DNA of 38,222 bases from Bacteriovorax sp. Lineage in GTDB: Bacteria; Bdellovibrionota; Bacteriovoracia; Bacteriovoracales; Bacteriovoracaceae. Below the pieces are notes generated by a model. The model was not told where the DNA came from, ran no database searches, and saw nothing but the letters and a program-made list of their open reading frames with translations. The position numbers and the translations under genes were made by a program. Below, piece after piece: positions 5,098-14,339 of the stretch; position 1 is the first letter of the stretch, and every line of letters starts with the position of its first letter. The stretch spans positions 1 through 38,222 of the forward strand of contig JACMPM010000121.1 in assembly GCA_014377485.1 (NCBI GenBank), written 5' to 3'.

Positions 5098-5132
5098 CTG
5101 GTAAATAATTCATTTTAAAAGGACGTGTGCTC

Positions 5133-8100
5133 ATGCCAGAAAAAAACTCTGAAAGCAATTTCAAAAATCTTCCGTATGATCCAAAAAAGCTAAAAAGAGA
5201 GTTAACTAAATATTATATTTCTTCTACTAAAGAAGAACAGGCAGAAATGCTGACGACAATTAAACTTAAAACACTGAGTGACCTCTACGCTCATATACCT
5301 GATGATGTAAAATTCGACAAAGCGCCCTTTGTGACAGAAGAACTTTCATATAACGATCTCATCGCTCACGTCGAAGAAGTTGCGGCAAAAAATAATGTCA
5401 AAACATGTTTCATCGGGGACGGTTTAAAAAATTATAAAGTTTCAGAAATTGTGCCTTATGTTTGCAACCTACGCGGACTAACTACGGCCTACACTCCTTA
5501 TCAACCTGAGAGATCGCAAGGAACTTTGAACTCTCTTTGGATTTATTCATCAGCACTTTCTATGCTGACTGGATTTGAAGCAGTCAACGCTTCTTTTTAT
5601 GACCGCTCAACGACTCTTTTTGAAGCGATTCAAACTGCGATGAGAATTGTTAAAAATACTAATACTGCTCTGATTTGCGAATCAATATACCCAGGTGATA
5701 TTGAAGTTTTAAAAACTCACGCTAGAGAGACTGGTTTAAAGTTAATCACTATTCCAACTGACCCTGAAACAGGGATAACAAATATTGAAATTGCCCGCAA
5801 GCTTGCTCTGGAAATAGGATCTAATCTCGCAGCAATAGCATTTCCTCAAGTCAATAATTTTGGAAACCTTGAAGATGTTCATGAACTAACAGATTTATGT
5901 ACTGAACTCAATATTCAATCAATCGCATTATTTGATCCTATGCTTCTGGCAACTGATGGATTAATTCCACCGGTAGAATACGGAAGTAATAAGCAAGGTG
6001 CCAACATGATCGTGGGAGAAGGCCAACATCTTGCCATCGCTCCAAACTTTGGTGGCCCAGGACTAGGGATTTTTGGTATTCGTTATAATGAAAAAAATAA
6101 ATTAGATATCCGTTCTACTGCAGGTCGATTTATCGGACGCGCCAAAGATGTAGATGGGAAAAGTTGTTTATGCATGGTTTTATCAACTCGTGAACAACAT
6201 ATCCGTAGAGACAAGGCCACTTCAAATATTTGTTCTAACCAATCGTTTATTGCGACTGCCGCAGGTGCTGCAATCCTAGCTCGTGGTGAAGAAGGAATGA
6301 CTGAGTCAGCTCTATTAGGGCGCGACTATGCACTTCAAATGGCACAAGTTCTCACTCAATATAAAGGTGTCAACCTCGCCTTCCCATCAACTCCTTTTTA
6401 TAATGAATTTACACTTGAACTTCCAATGACAGTTAGTGAGCTTCAAAAAAGAGCATCGAAAGCAAATCTTCAACTTGGCGTTGATGTTAGCAATCGATTA
6501 AAAGACGGAAGAAATCTTCTGCTGCTCTCATTCTTTGATGTACACACAGACGAAGATCTTGAAGCATTAGAAATCTTTTTTAGAGATAATTTTGAAGCAG
6601 AGGAAAATGATGAGTTCCTTCCTGAAATTCCTGAAAATTTCCTACGTACTTCAAAAGTTGGTTTGCCCTCTCTTGAAATTGAAGACATTAAAACTTACTA
6701 CAAAAAACTCGCTGACTTAAATGTTAGCCCTGATGATAATATTTATCCTCTTGGTTCATGCACAATGAAATACAATCCCTATATCAATGACTACGCTGCG
6801 AGCTTAAAAGGCTTTACAGATATTCACCCTCAAGCACCGATTGAAGATGTTCAGGGATGCCTTAAAATTTTATTTTCCATTCAAGAAATGTTTAAGTCTA
6901 TTACAGGACTACCAGCAGTAACAACTCAACCGGTGGCCGGAGCGCAAGGTGAATTGGTTGGATTAAAATTATTTCAAGCCTATCACCGAAATAATGGGGA
7001 ATCAGAAACCCGCAATATTCTTTTAATTCCACGTTCTGCTCATGGAACAAATCCTGCTTCGGCGACGATGGCCGGATTTGAAACAAAAACGGTCGACGGA
7101 ATACAATACGGAATTGTAACGATTGAAGCTAATAAAAAAGGTCAAATTGATTTTGATCAAATGAAAGAGGCCATCGAAAAATACAAAACCAGAATTGCTG
7201 GTGTAATGGTTACGAATCCAAACACTTCAGGAATTTTTGAAACTTGCTTTAGAGAAATGAGTAAACTCATTCACGCCGCTGGTGGATTAGTTTATATGGA
7301 CGGCGCGAACATGAACGCTATCGCTGGTTGGATAGATCTCGATAAATTAGGTGTAGATGCTGTTCATAATAATCTACATAAAACCTGGACTATTCCTCAC
7401 GGTGGCGGGGGCCCAGGAGACGGTATCGTTGCAGTCTCTCATCGACTGATTGATTATCTCCCTGGAATTCAAGTTACAAAAGACAGTGCCGGATTTTATG
7501 ATATGGTGAAAGCTCCAAAATCAATTGGTTCATTCCATCGTCACTTTGGAAATTTCGCTCATAAAATTAGGGCCTATACTTATATCAAGTCACTTGGCGG
7601 TGCAGGAACTAGAGAGATGTCTGCTGTAGCTGTTCTTGCAGCTCGCTATTTACATGAAAAATTAAAACCAACTTTCCCTAGTCTTCCAGAAGAATGTGAC
7701 AACGAAGTTCGTATGCACGAATTTATTCTCACAATAACTAAAGATACTTTTGCCCGCATTGACGCCGGTGGAACTCCTAAAGCTCAGGCCATAGCAAAAA
7801 TAGGGAAACTCTTTTTAGATTTCGGACTCCATGCTCCGACTGTTGCGTTCCCTGAAATTTATGGCCTGATGATTGAGCCTACTGAGACTTATAGTAAAGC
7901 TGAACTCGACCGTTTTGTAGATGTAGTAAACGCTATCTCAGAGCTTATTAACGAGACACCACATGTTCTAAGAACAGCACCTCATTTTACACCTGTAAAA
8001 AAAGTAGATGAGGTTGATGCTAATAAGAATTTAACTTTTATGGAAGAGTTGAAAGTTCTTCCAACACTTTACTCGAACGTTATAGATCCATTAAAACTCT

Positions 8101-8159
8101 CCAAAATGAATATTTCGGATGTAAGTCATGAAATTCTTCGGGCGCATAATGAAGGTTAA
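5133..8159 (+). CDS. gcvP: Glycine dehydrogenase (decarboxylating), P protein, PA-PB type fused in one chain
   Basis: This is the P protein of the glycine cleavage system: it decarboxylates glycine on pyridoxal phosphate and passes aminomethyl to the lipoyl group of GcvH. The ATG at 5133 is preferred over the GTG at 5127 because AAAAGGA (5117-5123) gives a spacing of 9. Residues 1 to about 475 resemble the GcvPA subunit (N-terminal KTLSDLYAHIPDDVKF) and residues about 510-1008 resemble GcvPB (YPLGSCTMKYNPYINDY). The PLP lysine is in NNLHKTWTIPHGGGGPGDG, Lys750. At 1008 residues it is somewhat longer than the usual one-chain enzyme (about 950). No gcvT or gcvH lies nearby. A strong terminator follows. 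The identity is secure; the PA/PB-like halves are judged by eye. Confidence 0.95.
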   Translation: MPEKNSESNFKNLPYDPKKLKRELTKYYISSTKEEQAEMLTTIKLKTLSDLYAHIPDDVKFDKAPFVTEELSYNDLIAHVEEVAAKNNVKTCFIGDGLKNYKVSEIVPYVCNLRGLTTAYTPYQPERSQGTLNSLWIYSSALSMLTGFEAVNASFYDRSTTLFEAIQTAMRIVKNTNTALICESIYPGDIEVLKTHARETGLKLITIPTDPETGITNIEIARKLALEIGSNLAAIAFPQVNNFGNLEDVHELTDLCTELNIQSIALFDPMLLATDGLIPPVEYGSNKQGANMIVGEGQHLAIAPNFGGPGLGIFGIRYNEKNKLDIRSTAGRFIGRAKDVDGKSCLCMVLSTREQHIRRDKATSNICSNQSFIATAAGAAILARGEEGMTESALLGRDYALQMAQVLTQYKGVNLAFPSTPFYNEFTLELPMTVSELQKRASKANLQLGVDVSNRLKDGRNLLLLSFFDVHTDEDLEALEIFFRDNFEAEENDEFLPEIPENFLRTSKVGLPSLEIEDIKTYYKKLADLNVSPDDNIYPLGSCTMKYNPYINDYAASLKGFTDIHPQAPIEDVQGCLKILFSIQEMFKSITGLPAVTTQPVAGAQGELVGLKLFQAYHRNNGESETRNILLIPRSAHGTNPASATMAGFETKTVDGIQYGIVTIEANKKGQIDFDQMKEAIEKYKTRIAGVMVTNPNTSGIFETCFREMSKLIHAAGGLVYMDGANMNAIAGWIDLDKLGVDAVHNNLHKTWTIPHGGGGPGDGIVAVSHRLIDYLPGIQVTKDSAGFYDMVKAPKSIGSFHRHFGNFAHKIRAYTYIKSLGGAGTREMSAVAVLAARYLHEKLKPTFPSLPEECDNEVRMHEFILTITKDTFARIDAGGTPKAQAIAKIGKLFLDFGLHAPTVAFPEIYGLMIEPTETYSKAELDRFVDVVNAISELINETPHVLRTAPHFTPVKKVDEVDANKNLTFMEELKVLPTLYSNVIDPLKLSKMNISDVSHEILRAHNEG

Positions 8160-8184: not shown

Positions 8185-8216
8185 AAAAAAGCCTAAGAAA
8201 ATACTTAGGCTTTTTT
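8185..8216. terminator. Bidirectional intrinsic terminator
   Basis: GCCTAAG (8191-8197) pairs with CTTAGGC (8204-8210) around a 6-base loop. It is flanked by an A-run (8185-8190) and a T-run (8211-8216), so it can end both gcvP (plus) and the four-gene operon whose last stop is at 8222 (minus). Confidence 0.9.
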
Positions 8217-8221
8217 ATTAT

Positions 8222-9091
8222 TTAAGGTTTTAAAACTACTGCTCGTGCAACTCTCTCGCCCCGGCAAGGTGATTGGCGATTTTTACTATTTGGTTCTACG
8301 TCGATAGTTGCCACATCTTCAAGCAACTCCAAGTGGCATTGATTTAAAAAAACTTTTAAATCTTTAGGGTCTATACCCCATTTGAAAGGCTCACTTGCCA
8401 ATTTTAAGAAGAAATTAATTAGACCTTTGCCTTTATGAAAATTGAAAGCCTTATTGGCATCTGGCTCAATATAAGTAAAAATAATTTCTGAATAATCAGG
8501 AAGCACAAATGCCAGGTCAGTGAAAAAAAGTCGCACATCTTGTTCACTCAAGTACATAGAAACGGCTTCCCAAACAACTATAACAGGCCTGTCAGATAGT
8601 ATTTTTGGTGCCAATTCACGAATTGATTCACGGGTAAGATCAAGTCCTATATATAGCATTTTTGTATTTATGTTTTTAACTAAAATTAATTTTAAATTCT
8701 GAGTGGCGGGGTGATCAACTTCAAACACTTCTTTAAAACTTTTATTTAATGAGCATTCTAATCCTAGCCCGTCGAGCCCTGCTCCGATCACAAATAAAGT
8801 AGAGTTAGGTTTTTGTTCAACCCATTTTAAAACGGTTTGATAAATCCACCATTTTCGTCTTAAAACATGCTCTGAAAAACCAGGAAGGATAAGATTTTCT
8901 AATCGATTTGATACAAATCTAAAAAGCTTAGAATTAAAAAAAAATCTGAAAAATGATGAATAATATTTTACTAACAACTCTTTTGAAAGCAATAATGTGC
9001 CCGGAAGGACAAAAGATGGAGATTTTCTTGCGTTGTTAAAACAAACGAGTGAGATGAGTATTGCCGTTTTACTAATACGATTGTCTTTCAC
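8222..9091 (-). CDS. SAM-dependent methyltransferase, leucine carboxyl methyltransferase (LCM/PPM) family
   Basis: This 289-residue protein has the LCM-family SAM site FVIGAGLDGLGLEC (about residues 101-114) with the diagnostic EVDHPATQNLK about 15 residues later. A second motif, VVWEAVSMYLSEQDV, lies near residue 175, and PGFSEHVLRRKWWI precedes the SAM site. Family members methylate a carboxylate (PP2A leucine) or act as O-methyltransferases on small molecules and polyketides. The start is GTG at 9091, four bases inside the upstream gene (GTGA overlap), with AAGGGA 5 bases before it. It is the last gene of the operon and ends just before a terminator. The substrate is unknown; a carboxyl or hydroxyl made by the upstream enzymes is the natural guess (inference). 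Confidence 0.85.
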   Translation of the reverse strand: MKDNRISKTAILISLVCFNNARKSPSFVLPGTLLLSKELLVKYYSSFFRFFFNSKLFRFVSNRLENLILPGFSEHVLRRKWWIYQTVLKWVEQKPNSTLFVIGAGLDGLGLECSLNKSFKEVFEVDHPATQNLKLILVKNINTKMLYIGLDLTRESIRELAPKILSDRPVIVVWEAVSMYLSEQDVRLFFTDLAFVLPDYSEIIFTYIEPDANKAFNFHKGKGLINFFLKLASEPFKWGIDPKDLKVFLNQCHLELLEDVATIDVEPNSKNRQSPCRGERVARAVVLKP

Positions 9092-10215
9092 AGGGATCCC
9101 TTTTTTATGAATGGATTCTCTGTTTTAAAGAGAATTCCAAGTCCATGCGGTCCAATTTTATTTTGATTTTTAATTCCATTAAAGGGAGAGAGCGAAAGTT
9201 TTGGAAGAATGGGATCTACACTTAATAAATGATCCGAAAATCCACCTTCGTAAAAGAAATTTTTTCCATTATATTTACTGATTAAGGCCAATGCGGCCCT
9301 GGTTAAAAGAGAAGTCTCGCCGACTTGAGAGCCAATGCCCCAAAGCATCTTGTACTTCTGGGCCTGATCAATAATTTCCATGGTTCTATTAATTCCGCCC
9401 AGCTTGGAAATTCTAATATTCAAACAAACACGACTTGGAAAACTGCCATAATAATCTAAATCAGACAGATTGGTAAGAGACTCGTCTAAAATTAAAAATA
9501 AGTTACTGAATTTCAAAAATTTACTAATACTTTCTTGATTTCCTGGTTCAAAGGGTTCTTCAATTCCCCAGATGGGAATAATAATATTTTGTAAAAAAGA
9601 TAATAATACTTCGTATGATAAAAATGAGTTATTGGCATCCATTCGGAAACGCATACCGGACTTATAAAACAACCTAGTAATAGGATGATTGAGGAAAGCT
9701 TGAACTCTTATTTGATCTTCAATTGAAGATGATATTTTTAGTTTTATATCATTTATGCCAAAAAGCTTTGCGATAATTAAATTTTTTATCATTTTCGTTA
9801 CAGATTTTAACCCTATCACCATCGTGGGATTAATCTTATTAGATTTTTTTTTAGTCGAAATAATATCCTCTAAAGATTGTTTATTTTTTAATCCATACCA
9901 ATCTAGCCATGCGAGTTCGAGCGCGCAAAAAGCACTTTGATTATTATTTATTAATACTCTATTGGAAAAAATCCAAGCTTGAAATGATGGCAGAGTGTAA
10001 CAATAATTTATTTTACTAATTTCAGAATGTTCATAGAATTTTTTAATCGTCTCAGCATTTTCGCCCGTCACATAAGAACGCGGACAAGATTCTCCAAAAC
10101 CTTGAATTTGATCATTTTCTAACATCGCCCAAAGTGTCTCACTCTTGTCTCTTTCAAAACTAGCATGAGAAAACTTTATCTTGAAAGGTATAGACTGCAT
10201 TTTATATTGAATCAT
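9088..10215 (-). CDS. Enolase-superfamily enzyme, muconate cycloisomerase subgroup (epimerase/racemase/OSBS-like)
   Basis: The capping domain (GFGESCPRSYVTGE, near residues 40-55) is followed by a barrel carrying the muconate-subgroup residues: KLK (the KxK general base) near 155, DANN near 190, EEPF near 220, DES near 245 and the second lysine in RISKLGG near 270. GIGSQVGETSLLTRAA near residue 300 closes the set. All metal ligands (Asp, Glu, Asp) and both lysines appear intact, so the enzyme should abstract a proton alpha to a carboxylate. Known members are dipeptide epimerases, N-succinylamino acid racemases and o-succinylbenzoate synthases; no menaquinone gene is nearby to favour OSBS. I chose the ATG at 10215, which overlaps the upstream stop as ATGA; an in-frame ATG at 10236 is possible. 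Confidence 0.85.
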   Translation of the reverse strand: MIQYKMQSIPFKIKFSHASFERDKSETLWAMLENDQIQGFGESCPRSYVTGENAETIKKFYEHSEISKINYCYTLPSFQAWIFSNRVLINNNQSAFCALELAWLDWYGLKNKQSLEDIISTKKKSNKINPTMVIGLKSVTKMIKNLIIAKLFGINDIKLKISSSIEDQIRVQAFLNHPITRLFYKSGMRFRMDANNSFLSYEVLLSFLQNIIIPIWGIEEPFEPGNQESISKFLKFSNLFLILDESLTNLSDLDYYGSFPSRVCLNIRISKLGGINRTMEIIDQAQKYKMLWGIGSQVGETSLLTRAALALISKYNGKNFFYEGGFSDHLLSVDPILPKLSLSPFNGIKNQNKIGPHGLGILFKTENPFIKKGSL

Positions 10216-12752
10216 TTTCTTTGCCACACTTTCCATTCTGAAAAAATTTTTTCAAAAACTTTAAGTGTGAGCAATGCTTTAAGTTTCCATTGAGCTTCAC
10301 GTACTTTTTTAATCAATATTTCCTGTTTTGCAAACTCTTCAATAAAACCATCATTAACTTGAATTAATTTTAAAGCATGCAATCGATCAGAACAACGTTT
10401 TGAATCATATTCGATATTAATTTTTCTCAAAAGATTATCTAATTCTAACTCCAATTGGAATAAGTCATGGCCCATTAACTCACCTTCAATTAATGCTATA
10501 TAATAAGCATTTTCTTCATCCGCGAGCGCAATCATATTGAGTTTTAATTGATGATTTTCATTGAGAAAAGAAACGGCCTCTAAAAACTGATTCTCATATA
10601 GTTTCTCCCCTGTAATGCTAGTCACTCCAGTTCCTTTTCGAATAAAACGAATAAGCGGGATGCCATTACGAAAGTCATCCACACGAATGACATCATTGAT
10701 ATTATACCGATAAAGACCATTATAGGTTGTGAGGTAAATCATGTACTCAATACCAAACTTCAATTGATGGAGTAGTAGATATTGGTTATTATTTATTTCA
10801 TCAACCGGTTTAAATTCAAAAAAATGATCATAAATGGTGAGCATTTCGCCATTTGAATTTGTTAATGGAACACTAATTCTCGCTTCGCTGGCAAGGTAGC
10901 CAATCTCATGGAATAATGGTGCATTTAATTCTTCAGAAAATGATTTTTTAATTTTTTCAAAGGCAAGCTTACAACTGCCGCCTTGCCAGGTGGCAACTAC
11001 CACTGTTTTGGGTAATAGATCATGCAGCGAAATCTTCCCTTTGGATTTATACAATTCCTTCAGCCTCTGTGCTTTTTCTGGCCGAGGTGTGAGCTTTTTT
11101 TTAATTACTTTAACAATGTTTTGATCAAGTTTATGTGAATCAAAAAAGCTACCATTACTTAAATCAGTAATAAAAAGATCAAACTTTTCATTTATCATAA
11201 CTTCAAGCTTTAAGAGCGTACTTGGATTTGCACAACCAATAAATGTAATATTATTCTCATTTAAAATAATCCTAAGCACTAAATTATACCTAAGATCTAC
11301 ATCCGCAATCTCAAAAACAGCTGAAGGAACTACATAAAGACTGCTGATAATTTTTGGAAATGAAGCAATAAAATGGGCAGAAGCAGAACCGATCTCAAGC
11401 CCGTTAACAGTGTGTCCTTCAATTTTTTGTCCAGTGAAAACTAAAAAATTTCCGACCGTATAATTATCAGATTTTTTCAGGGCTTCAAATAGTGAAAAAT
11501 TTTGTGAATCTTTATTGGCCCGGATAGTTTCCTCTAAAATAGGAATGAGCTTTGCTTTACTGGTTGAACCAGAAGTCTGAGTGTAAAAAACTGGCTTATT
11601 GGTAATTAAGCCGTAAGTATTTTTAGATTCTTGATCTTCGTAATAGGCCCTTAGGTCTTCATATTCGTGAATGGGAATGTTTTCCTGGTATTTTGAAATT
11701 GAATCTATATCAGCAAAATGATACTTTAAACCTAAACTTGTCTGTTTATTTTTTTTTAATATCTTCAATAATATTTCAGTTTGAATTTCTACCAATGAAC
11801 GATTGCTCTCAAGGTGCTTTTTATAAATTTTTCCGCCCTTGATCCTAATACTTAAATTCATCAATTTTGATTTTAGGGAAAAAGTGCCAGTTTGATCCAA
11901 GTCGTGAATAAAAGGTGCAAGTAATTGATCAATAAAATTTTGAGGATAGTTTTTATTTTTTAAACCATAATGTGTTGGCCCAAGCGAGTCCGGTAAAAAA
12001 TAGGTTCCAAAAATTTGATCATAAAGACTAAGTTTATTTCCAAAATTATTATTAGCTTCCAGCGCCTGGTAGGAGTGATGATATCTATGTTGTTCAGGCC
12101 CGGAAATAATTCTATTGAGAAGTCCTAAACGCATATCAATATTACAATGTTGGAAAAATCCGTTTACGGCATAAAAGACAAAATAAAGTCCAAGTGCCAG
12201 CGGATTTACACCCATAAAAATAAAAAGAATAGATTCCCCGCAGAGTTGAAAAACTTTCTCAATGGGATGAAATCTTCCGACATTCCACCAATACAATTTC
12301 TCAGTGCTGTGGTGAACGGCATGAAATCGCCAAAGTAATGGAGAATGATGACAATAATAATGAATCCAATAACGGACAAATTCACTTAAAGAAATTAATA
12401 AAATAATTTGTAGTGCCATTGGAAAATGATTAGGCCAAAAATTTATTTTAAATGATGTATATGAAGAAAAAAGGACAATCGCTGAAAGTGCCCCGGCCTG
12501 AATTAATTTGCCCAGCAGGCCATGAACTAATAATAAATAAAGTCCGTCTGTGCCTGCCCTTGTATCAAAGCCCTGCCATTCTTTTTTAAATGGCATGTAC
12601 TTTTCACCAAGAAAAATAGTAAAAGCACCAAAGGCCATTGCCCAAAAAGTGGCTGATTCAATCTTAGAGGTAATATCTAAAATTATTATAAAAATAAGAT
12701 AGCTCAAAATTATCGTCAGAGGATAAATAGAGAGTTGAATATTTTTTTTCAA
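10212..12752 (-). CDS. Fusion of fatty acid hydroxylase/sterol desaturase domain and GH3-type acyl-adenylate amide synthetase
   Basis: Two unrelated enzymes form one 846-residue chain. Residues 1-290 are a membrane di-iron hydroxylase: several transmembrane helices and the His boxes HYYCH, HAVHH (about 130-150) and HRYHH (about 222). Residues about 300-846 are a GH3-like adenylating enzyme: P-loop-like QTSGSTSKAK (about 390), GYLASEARI (about 620), YRYNINDVIRVDDF (about 675) and a C-terminal segment beginning SITGEKLYENQ (about 715). GH3 enzymes activate a carboxylate as acyl-AMP and join it to an amino acid. The start is TTG at 12752 with AAAGG 9 bases before it, 12 bp after the nucleotidase stop; there is no stop or frameshift between the domains. 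The fusion implies the hydroxylated product, or a lipid held at the membrane, is the GH3 substrate (inference). Confidence 0.85.
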   Translation of the reverse strand: MKKNIQLSIYPLTIILSYLIFIIILDITSKIESATFWAMAFGAFTIFLGEKYMPFKKEWQGFDTRAGTDGLYLLLVHGLLGKLIQAGALSAIVLFSSYTSFKINFWPNHFPMALQIILLISLSEFVRYWIHYYCHHSPLLWRFHAVHHSTEKLYWWNVGRFHPIEKVFQLCGESILFIFMGVNPLALGLYFVFYAVNGFFQHCNIDMRLGLLNRIISGPEQHRYHHSYQALEANNNFGNKLSLYDQIFGTYFLPDSLGPTHYGLKNKNYPQNFIDQLLAPFIHDLDQTGTFSLKSKLMNLSIRIKGGKIYKKHLESNRSLVEIQTEILLKILKKNKQTSLGLKYHFADIDSISKYQENIPIHEYEDLRAYYEDQESKNTYGLITNKPVFYTQTSGSTSKAKLIPILEETIRANKDSQNFSLFEALKKSDNYTVGNFLVFTGQKIEGHTVNGLEIGSASAHFIASFPKIISSLYVVPSAVFEIADVDLRYNLVLRIILNENNITFIGCANPSTLLKLEVMINEKFDLFITDLSNGSFFDSHKLDQNIVKVIKKKLTPRPEKAQRLKELYKSKGKISLHDLLPKTVVVATWQGGSCKLAFEKIKKSFSEELNAPLFHEIGYLASEARISVPLTNSNGEMLTIYDHFFEFKPVDEINNNQYLLLHQLKFGIEYMIYLTTYNGLYRYNINDVIRVDDFRNGIPLIRFIRKGTGVTSITGEKLYENQFLEAVSFLNENHQLKLNMIALADEENAYYIALIEGELMGHDLFQLELELDNLLRKINIEYDSKRCSDRLHALKLIQVNDGFIEEFAKQEILIKKVREAQWKLKALLTLKVFEKIFSEWKVWQRK

Positions 12753-12764
12753 AATTATAGGCCT

Positions 12765-14339
12765 TTATTCACCTAATTCTGCATTTTGATTTGGCATTAT
12801 TAAGAGATGATTATCTTCGCTGATTTTATTCAAACTTAAACTACCCACGCTTTGGGCGACTTTTTCTTCAAGCGTATTCCAGATTTTAAACTTAGTATTT
12901 TTCGGGCTGCGAAGCAGCGCCGAAGTGTAAGGACTCACTCCTTCAGCTCCTCTTACAATACCTTCCGTAAAGGCGACTGTATAATACTTAAAGGGGTTGA
13001 TCACTTTTCCATTTACTAAAAGTTTTTTGCTTTTTATACCAAATTCTGTTTTTTTATATTCCATAGTGATGCCTGAAAAAGTTAATGGCTGACCAAAATG
13101 AGTAAGAGCTTCAAAGACTAAACGCAACCACACACCTTTAATTTTGGTCGTATAAATAGTCCAGCCATATTTTTCAGATAAGTCAAAGACTCTTGGAATA
13201 GAATTAAATAGATCGCGACGAGAAACATTTCCAGTAGGAAAATCTTCTCCATTCATAAAAGGCGTATGAATGGCAATATCGGCCTTTGACTTTTCTTTCA
13301 TTGAATCTGTGATGAAATAAGCCCATTTACGTGCTCCATCTTTATCATTTGCCTTTAAATCTGAATACCCGACATGCTCATCCAGCCAATCTTTTCCGTA
13401 AGTATTATCAAGATCGTTATTGGCCTCTTCCACTAATGATTTAATTTTTAAATCACTCGCTTCATATTTAACAGGAATTAATTCATAAGAAACAATTTTT
13501 AAAGGGTGTCCAACTTCGAGATCAACAATCAGGCGGCCTAGGTATTCAGTATGCATACCGGCTTGAACGATTGGCACAGAAAGTTTATTTTTATTAACAC
13601 CGTACGAAGGTTTAAAAAGTGCCGTATGAGAGTGTCCACCAACAATCAGATCGATGTATTTTGTTCGCTCGGCAAGTTTGATGTCGTTTAGAACGCCTAT
13701 ATGAGTAAGAGCAATTATATAATCATTTTTTCTTTGTTTAAGAATTTGTTCATAGTGTTTAGCGGCCTTGAAGGGGTTGGTAATTCTTCCACCATCAAAG
13801 CGCCATTTATAAAAAATTTCATTAGTTGTTAAACCCAATACACCAATTTTTATTCCATCAATTACGAATTCTTTAAATGGTTTTATTTTTGACCGTAGAT
13901 TTTTGAAGTCGTAATTCATTTCTAAATTGGCCGCAACCAGCGAGAATTTTAAATCCATTTCACCTAAGATTTTATCAAGGTCGCGCGTTCCCATTAAATA
14001 GTCGTGATTTCCAATTGCGCCGACATCGTAACCCATTTCATTATGTACATCGAATACTTTTCTTCCCGCATCGGCCATGTAATATAAATTTCCTTCGGTA
14101 AAATCTCCCGCATCCATCACCAGAGATTTTACTCCTTCTTCAGTCATTTTATTTTTGTAAAAATCGATTAAACTCTTAAGTCTTGCTGCTCCACCGCGAT
14201 TGGCATCATGATCTATGCTATCGAGGTATGAATGGGTGTCATTAGTGTGGAGTATTTGAATCAACTTTGCGTTTGCAGCGTGAGGATTTAGCAGAGAAAA
14301 AGCTGTAAAGAATAAAATGCTAAAAAAATTTTTGCTCAT
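12765..14339 (-). CDS. Exported 5'-nucleotidase/UshA-like metallophosphatase
   Basis: A signal peptide (residues 1-24, ending HAANA) precedes a calcineurin-like metallophosphatase domain with all metal motifs: HTNDTH (Asp34, His36), DAGDF, GNHDY, THIG and GGHSH. A C-terminal 5_nucleotid_C domain (about residues 330-505) follows, with NGEDFPTGNVSRRDLFN and VAFTEGIVRG for nucleotide binding. The family hydrolyses AMP and other nucleotides, UDP-sugars or 2',3'-cyclic nucleotides in the periplasm; 524 residues is usual. GAGGTG lies 5 bases before the ATG. It opens the four-gene operon and is the only exported member. It may simply salvage nucleotides during prey digestion; a link to the AMP-releasing GH3 enzyme is doubtful because they act in different compartments. 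Confidence 0.92.
   Translation of the reverse strand: MSKNFFSILFFTAFSLLNPHAANAKLIQILHTNDTHSYLDSIDHDANRGGAARLKSLIDFYKNKMTEEGVKSLVMDAGDFTEGNLYYMADAGRKVFDVHNEMGYDVGAIGNHDYLMGTRDLDKILGEMDLKFSLVAANLEMNYDFKNLRSKIKPFKEFVIDGIKIGVLGLTTNEIFYKWRFDGGRITNPFKAAKHYEQILKQRKNDYIIALTHIGVLNDIKLAERTKYIDLIVGGHSHTALFKPSYGVNKNKLSVPIVQAGMHTEYLGRLIVDLEVGHPLKIVSYELIPVKYEASDLKIKSLVEEANNDLDNTYGKDWLDEHVGYSDLKANDKDGARKWAYFITDSMKEKSKADIAIHTPFMNGEDFPTGNVSRRDLFNSIPRVFDLSEKYGWTIYTTKIKGVWLRLVFEALTHFGQPLTFSGITMEYKKTEFGIKSKKLLVNGKVINPFKYYTVAFTEGIVRGAEGVSPYTSALLRSPKNTKFKIWNTLEEKVAQSVGSLSLNKISEDNHLLIMPNQNAELGE

Follow-up and report, generated by a model that had tools for sequence, protein, structure and literature searches.

What would a bacterial operon produce that brings together a membrane hydroxylase fused to a GH3-type acyl-acid-amido synthetase, an enolase-fold protein and a methyltransferase? 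Such a combination has been identified in Bacteriovorax sp. (assembly GCA_014377485.1, contig JACMPM010000121.1, positions 1 to 38,222; this entire stretch of 38,222 nucleotides is referred to as the window, and its genome as G000). The hydroxylase-GH3 fusion (10212-12752, minus strand, 846 residues, TTG start) is followed by an enolase-fold protein of the muconate-lactonizing enzyme (MLE) subgroup (9088-10236, minus strand, 382 residues), and the two are flanked by genes for a UshA-like phosphatase and a methyltransferase of the LCM family. The current analysis suggests, with a probability of roughly 0.55, that these genes belong to a cassette that builds a hydroxylated N-acyl amino acid membrane lipid through the action of the GH3 enzyme, the hydroxylase, the enolase and, optionally, a methyltransferase.

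Conservation of the cassette across bacteria

Contigs of bacterial genomes were scanned with an alignment of the enolases of relatives, which was seeded with GH3-adjacent enolases, retrieval being by enolase sequence alone; 173 relatives were obtained and the best 80 were kept. In 46 named loci the sequence extends 3 kb or more to either side of the enolase; in 40 of these a GH3 gene lies within 6 kb of the enolase, and 35 have the hydroxylase too. The genes usually follow the order hydroxylase–GH3–enolase and mostly abut, with spacers of a few bases. The six loci with no GH3 within this distance comprise two from Saprospiraceae and four in which the enolase is fused to an α/β-hydrolase (L085, L096, L100, L113), a protein encoded by a separate gene in other cassettes. 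Without the filter on flanks, GH3 and enolase are found together in 57 named loci of eleven phyla, namely Pseudomonadota, Nitrospirota, Bdellovibrionota, Nitrospinota, Poribacteria, Bacteroidota, Verrucomicrobiota, Acidobacteriota, Myxococcota, Spirochaetota and Planctomycetota; the records are labelled as metagenome-assembled genomes (MAG) or uncultured, so that binning errors could misplace single loci but not the overall pattern. Environmentally important groups such as Nitrospira, Nitrospina, Thiobacillus, Gallionellaceae and Bacteriovoracaceae are among the carriers. A scan of viral contigs has revealed no relatives, and a viral origin was rejected.

Three genomes of the same genus (L032-L034) encode a fused hydroxylase-GH3, the enolase and then an ICMT-type methyltransferase. 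Five other relatives, one of them from another family, have GH3 and the enolase, several with an α/β-hydrolase. The hydroxylase is missing from several cassettes. A preliminary description of the locus had made its proposal depend on a neighbourhood conserved beyond one strain, which for hydroxylase, GH3 and enolase is now found in at least eleven phyla. It had also suggested looking for homologues of both the enolase and the methyltransferase close to GH3 genes; most of the enolase homologues with full flanks lie there, and the methyltransferase is variable between cassettes.

Co-variation of the genes and enolase paralogues

The distance matrices of the three families are correlated (enolase and GH3, r = 0.81; GH3 and hydroxylase, 0.77; enolase and hydroxylase, 0.74; none of 999 permutations as high), a correlation that cannot tell joint inheritance from the species tree, the genes travelling together either way. 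In a tree of 83 GH3 proteins all the 60 enolase-linked sequences fall into one clade of 62 members with a support of 99/97, and only two members of the clade, including that of the relative G021, have no enolase. Among the GH3 loci retrieved from relatives, those outside the clade never have an enolase of the cassette family nearby. At least five changes between the fused and the separate state of hydroxylase and GH3 are needed on the hydroxylase tree. The fusion has therefore arisen or been lost repeatedly, which suggests that both activities act on one substrate.

A search of 97 related genomes with the enolase profile has identified ten with matches at E <1e-67, nine of which are the known GH3-linked copies; the remaining one (G085) is situated near a contig edge. 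Many of the 97 genomes, including G000, encode a weaker paralogue (E 1e-16 to 1e-33), which in G000 reaches 66 bits, the cassette enolase scoring 380. These results bear on the alternative that the four genes are merely co-transcribed; the enolase would then be a dipeptide epimerase or MenC with a housekeeping role, and the rest would be unrelated. Short spacing alone is indeed no proof of one pathway, and the UshA-like gene is not conserved with the others. Against this, the genome has a separate and more distant paralogue, the cassette recurs in eleven phyla and the gene distances co-vary; the alternative is considered very improbable. The preliminary description had itself named an assignment of the enolase to housekeeping, for instance the recycling of peptidoglycan dipeptides, as grounds for abandoning its proposal. 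With a separate low-scoring paralogue in G000 and many relatives, the cassette enolase is unlikely to be the housekeeping copy. The single pathway that was first proposed is strongly supported by these comparisons for the hydroxylase-GH3 and the enolase (eleven phyla, fusion and fission, co-varying distances, a single GH3 clade), less so for the LCM protein, and is unsupported for the UshA-like protein.

The hydroxylase-GH3 fusion

The fusion is comprised of an OlsE-like membrane hydroxylase (about residues 1-290) and a GH3 acyl-acid-amido synthetase (about residues 317-840), with Pfam scores of 94.8 bits for FA_hydroxylase (PF04116), 160.5 for GH3, 69 for GH3_M and 23.9 for GH3_C. The histidine motifs of the hydroxylase (HYYCHH, HAVHH and HRYHH) are invariant across 46 homologues; these multi-histidine di-iron motifs and the PF04116 match place it in the membrane fatty-acid hydroxylase superfamily. 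The GH3 motifs TSGSTSKAK, YLASE and YRYNIND are intact in the translation. The AlphaFold2 (AF2) model of the fusion has a predicted local distance difference test (pLDDT) score of 86.1 and its top fold matches are plant GH3 structures, which, together with the nucleotide motifs and with N-terminal, middle and C-terminal domains above the Pfam gathering scores, assign this region to the GH3 superfamily. It resembles plant GH3s such as JAR1, GH3.5, GH3.12 and GH3.15 in fold and nucleotide-binding motifs, and differs from them in being bacterial, in its fusion to a membrane hydroxylase and in an identity of about 20%.

The nearest NCBIfam models are OlsE for the hydroxylase and OlsH for the GH3 region, both below cut-off. 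The window hydroxylase belongs to the same membrane di-iron family as OlsE, with a nearly full-length match and the histidine motifs, but scores 180.5 bits with the OlsE equivalog (NF052566, cut-off 475) and is, unlike OlsE, fused to or located beside a GH3. With the OlsH equivalog (NF052613) the window GH3 scores 82.9 bits and those of the other cassettes 94-105, against a cut-off of 620.

OlsH is a planctomycete GH3 that has been shown biochemically to join free fatty acids to ornithine in an ATP-dependent manner, and its operon also holds OlsI, an α/β-hydrolase O-acyltransferase, and a methyltransferase (PMC12493201). The cassettes resemble the OlsH/OlsI/OlsG pathway in having a GH3-type ligase, several of them with α/β-hydrolases or methyltransferases. 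In contrast, the OlsH operon has neither an enolase nor a hydroxylase; neither is mentioned beside the OlsH GH3 in the sections consulted, the word hydroxylase occurs nowhere in the text, and the cassette GH3s (83-105 bits) lie far below the OlsH cut-off (PMC12493201). The same paper, of 2025, describes the functional meaning of the diversity of bacterial GH3s as still to be elucidated (PMC12493201). Searches of the open-access literature have found no account of a hydroxylase–GH3–enolase gene set and nothing beyond OlsH. We rate GH3-dependent aminolipid synthesis as known and the enolase as the unprecedented element; to our knowledge no enzyme of the enolase superfamily has previously been placed in membrane-lipid biosynthesis. 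The products of many bacterial GH3s are not known, and the cassette delimits a GH3 clade with recurrent enolase and hydroxylase partners.

The enolase-fold protein

The enolase of the window retains the catalytic residues K165/K167, D200/E226/D251 and K278. The first five are invariant in 56 homologues, while K278 is lysine in 53 of them and arginine in 3. R53, Y55, E307 and E330 are likewise invariant in the 56 and mark the subfamily. The KxK motif on β2, the D/E/D metal ligands and the lysine on β6 assign the protein to the muconate-lactonizing subgroup, and its AF2 model (pLDDT 92.2) matches structures of this subgroup at Z-scores of 34-38. In the structure search chloromuconate cycloisomerases, dipeptide epimerases and N-succinyl-Arg/Lys racemase are effectively tied; sequence profiles rank the racemase 2p88 first among the solved enolases, followed by dipeptide epimerases. 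The scores with two dipeptide epimerase equivalogs (36 and 21.5 bits) do not reach the cut-offs of 343-500.

L-Ala-D/L-Glu epimerases bind the free ammonium group of the substrate through a DxD motif on β8. The cassette enolases carry E330-G-x-F at the putative equivalent of this site; the profile-based alignments with 3jva and 1jpm end before β8. With 2p88, the N-acylamino acid racemases and the L-Ala-D/L-Glu epimerases the cassette enolases share the MLE fold, the KxK and β6 lysines, the D/E/D ligands and a TGE loop; unlike these, they have the PRxYVTGE and E330-G signatures, the linkage to GH3 and only 13-21% identity in structural alignments. The window enolase is a probable N-acyl amino acid racemase or epimerase of a new, GH3-linked MLE subfamily. 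N-succinylamino acid racemases work with the lysine pair as bases on an amide substrate (PMC8142540), and the lysine pair for catalysis is present in the window enolase.

The top NCBIfam match of the enolase is o-succinylbenzoate synthase (OSBS, MenC; TIGR01928), with 83.2 bits against a cut-off of 200.65. This raises the possibility that the enolase makes or remodels a small aromatic or cyclic acid, much as MenC acts before MenE, and that GH3 activates the acid to yield a non-lipid amide or natural product. Aromatic acids and jasmonate are substrates of plant GH3s, and GH3 and MenE have the adenylating-enzyme fold in common. The MenC scores of the cassette enolases, however, are confined to 83-86 bits against the cut-off of 200, a lipid hydroxylase resembling OlsE, often fused to GH3, usually makes up the third partner, and the accessory proteins are ICMT-type methyltransferases or α/β-hydrolases, as in the OlsH/OlsI lipid operon. 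A small acid as the substrate is regarded as improbable.

A proposed pathway

From gene order, conservation, co-variation, the modelled folds and the catalytic residues, which are established, we infer the substrates, the sequence of reactions and the product as follows. GH3, like OlsH, would use ATP to adenylate a free fatty acid and would form an N-acyl amino acid by linking the acyl moiety to an amino acid through the amino group of the latter. This molecule would be hydroxylated, either on the headgroup or on the acyl chain, by the OlsE-like di-iron hydroxylase that is fused to GH3 and embedded in the membrane. The enolase would bind the α-carboxylate through a divalent metal; one of its two opposing lysines would take the α-proton, and reprotonation would give an epimerised N-acyl amino acid. 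Methylation of the free carboxylate may be the task of the last enzyme of the operon (LCM here, ICMT in the sister species), and the α/β-hydrolases of other lineages possibly O-acylate the product. In the chemistry suggested in the preliminary description, the amide ligation by GH3 and the abstraction of an α-proton agree with the closest families, the precedent of OlsH being biochemical (PMC12493201). The product suggested there, a hydroxy-acyl amide that would be D-configured or methyl-esterified, is a prediction.

The enolase could alternatively bring about β-elimination of the newly added hydroxyl group. The hydroxylase would then add a β-hydroxyl to the headgroup and the loss of water would result in a dehydroamino-acid lipid, the chemistry of GH3 being unchanged. 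The consecutive arrangement of hydroxylase, GH3 and enolase, the recurrent hydroxylase-GH3 fusions and the presence in the MLE subgroup of the β-eliminating OSBS, the top NCBIfam match, are in accordance with elimination. It is nevertheless thought unlikely: the nearest solved enolases by profile are racemases and epimerases, several cassettes have no hydroxylase, and the characterised OlsE targets C4 of ornithine and not the β carbon, going by the title of a reference in PMC12493201.

Epimerisation of a hydroxylated N-acyl amino acid lipid is the preferred reading, and several observations weigh against it. The window proteins are well below the NCBIfam cut-offs for OlsH, OlsE, MenC and dipeptide epimerase, and the enolase profile is similar to OSBS and muconate cycloisomerase as well. 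The lipid nature of the product is suggested by family resemblance; plant GH3s take jasmonate, auxin and benzoates, and a non-lipid acid is possible. The two Saprospiraceae loci and the enolase-hydrolase fusions have no GH3 nearby, and G021, which has the fusion closest to that of the window, has no cassette enolase. The ICMT-type proteins have matches to the phospholipid methyltransferase family as well, which makes N-methylation possible. G000 further holds an acyltransferase of the OlsB type (PF13444; G000:C50:14144-14431), and a classical ornithine lipid may be formed by this route alongside the cassette.

A broader proposal, which we put forward tentatively and with somewhat less than even confidence, is that at least eleven phyla share an undescribed class of membrane aminolipid, with a dedicated enolase, located beside a hydroxylase-GH3 pair or fusion, that inverts (or dehydrates) the stereocentre of the headgroup. 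The predicted product, a hydroxy N-acyl amino acid lipid that is either epimerised or dehydrated, would, if confirmed, bring the enolase into lipid biosynthesis. A pair of assays is offered by the prediction, the product of GH3 serving as the substrate of the enolase.

Layout of the window operon, the methyltransferase slot and the UshA-like gene

Reading of the open reading frames (ORFs) has confirmed four minus-strand genes, transcribed in the order UshA-like, hydroxylase-GH3 fusion, enolase and LCM; the domains named for all four proteins exceed the Pfam gathering scores (MR_MLE_C in the enolase). A 12-bp gap (12753-12764) separates the UshA-like gene from the fusion. The overlap of fusion and enolase is ATGA at 10215-10212 if the enolase begins at Met8, and 25 bp if it begins at the first ATG (10236); Met8 (10215) is possibly the true start. 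The enolase and LCM genes overlap by GTGA at 9091-9088. Between the operon and a convergent gene (5127-8159) lies a palindromic hairpin with T-runs (8185-8216); it is flagged on the plus strand, is by its symmetry readable from both strands, and is likely to serve both the operon and the gene as terminator. The coupled layout of the preliminary description, with its gap, overlaps and closing terminator, is thus borne out by the sequence.

The methyltransferase of the window (METHYLTRANSFERASE slot; 8222-9091, minus strand, 289 residues, GTG start) is a putative S-adenosylmethionine (SAM)-dependent enzyme that belongs to the LCM family (PF04072, 43.4 bits; gathering score 22.3) and does not reach the cut-off of the subfamily TIGR00027 (49.3 bits against 93.55). 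An LCM protein with 29% identity to it over 277 columns is encoded in a Leptospiraceae cassette (L124) of the order enolase-GH3-LCM-hydroxylase, and a weaker one lies about 8 kb from the fusion of G021. In L032-L034 the ICMT-type membrane methyltransferase follows the enolase, which is the slot of the window LCM. In two relatives (G051 and G001) the closest homologues of LCM have neither GH3 nor enolase beside them. LCM is therefore considered an accessory and was rejected as a conserved member of the cassette; the methyltransferase is exchangeable, with LCM in two cassettes and ICMT in one clade. Classic members of the LCM and ICMT families methylate carboxylates, that of a lipidated cysteine in the case of ICMT, and a carboxyl methyl ester is therefore the simplest reaction that the two could have in common.

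The UshA-like 5'-nucleotidase/metallophosphatase (12765-14339, minus strand, 524 residues; Pfam 5_nucleotid_C and Metallophos) has an N-terminus like a signal peptide and is probably exported. Its gene, co-oriented with the fusion and 12 bp upstream of it, was left out of the earlier reasoning. No homologue occurs in any other cassette locus examined, and it was rejected as a cassette member. A link to phosphate starvation is speculation.

Neighbouring genes of other cassettes

In many cassettes (about 16 loci have it at position -3) the gene immediately upstream of that for the hydroxylase encodes a small membrane protein of about 155 residues, for example L046:5961-6464 (plus strand) and those of L053, L063, L065, L080 and L099; those tested match neither Pfam nor NCBIfam models. 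The hydroxylase ORF of some loci is long and resembles a fusion with this protein, as does one S15-hydrolase protein (L105). Several lineages have S15 hydrolases of the CocE/NonD type flanking the cassette (L056:6675-8480, L051:4645-6426, L105:10149-12410), and some of these carry a lipoprotein-like signal.

Four Nitrospirota loci (L066, L072, L074, L075) encode a 162-residue protein, TIR-type by eye, just downstream of the enolase. Genes for ParA/MinD-like ATPases adjoin the cassette in a Bacteriovoracaceae relative (L037:11944-13020, by Pfam match) and, as judged by sequence only, in two Planctomycetota (L118:7317-8111, L117:7309-8118).

A second GH3 arrangement has been identified in the same family (L041, L127, L130, L131, L133, L136, L139), consisting of a hydroxylase, a protein of about 210 residues and a GH3 of another clade. 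In L041 the protein of about 210 residues is a hexapeptide transferase, and a Rieske oxygenase adjoins.

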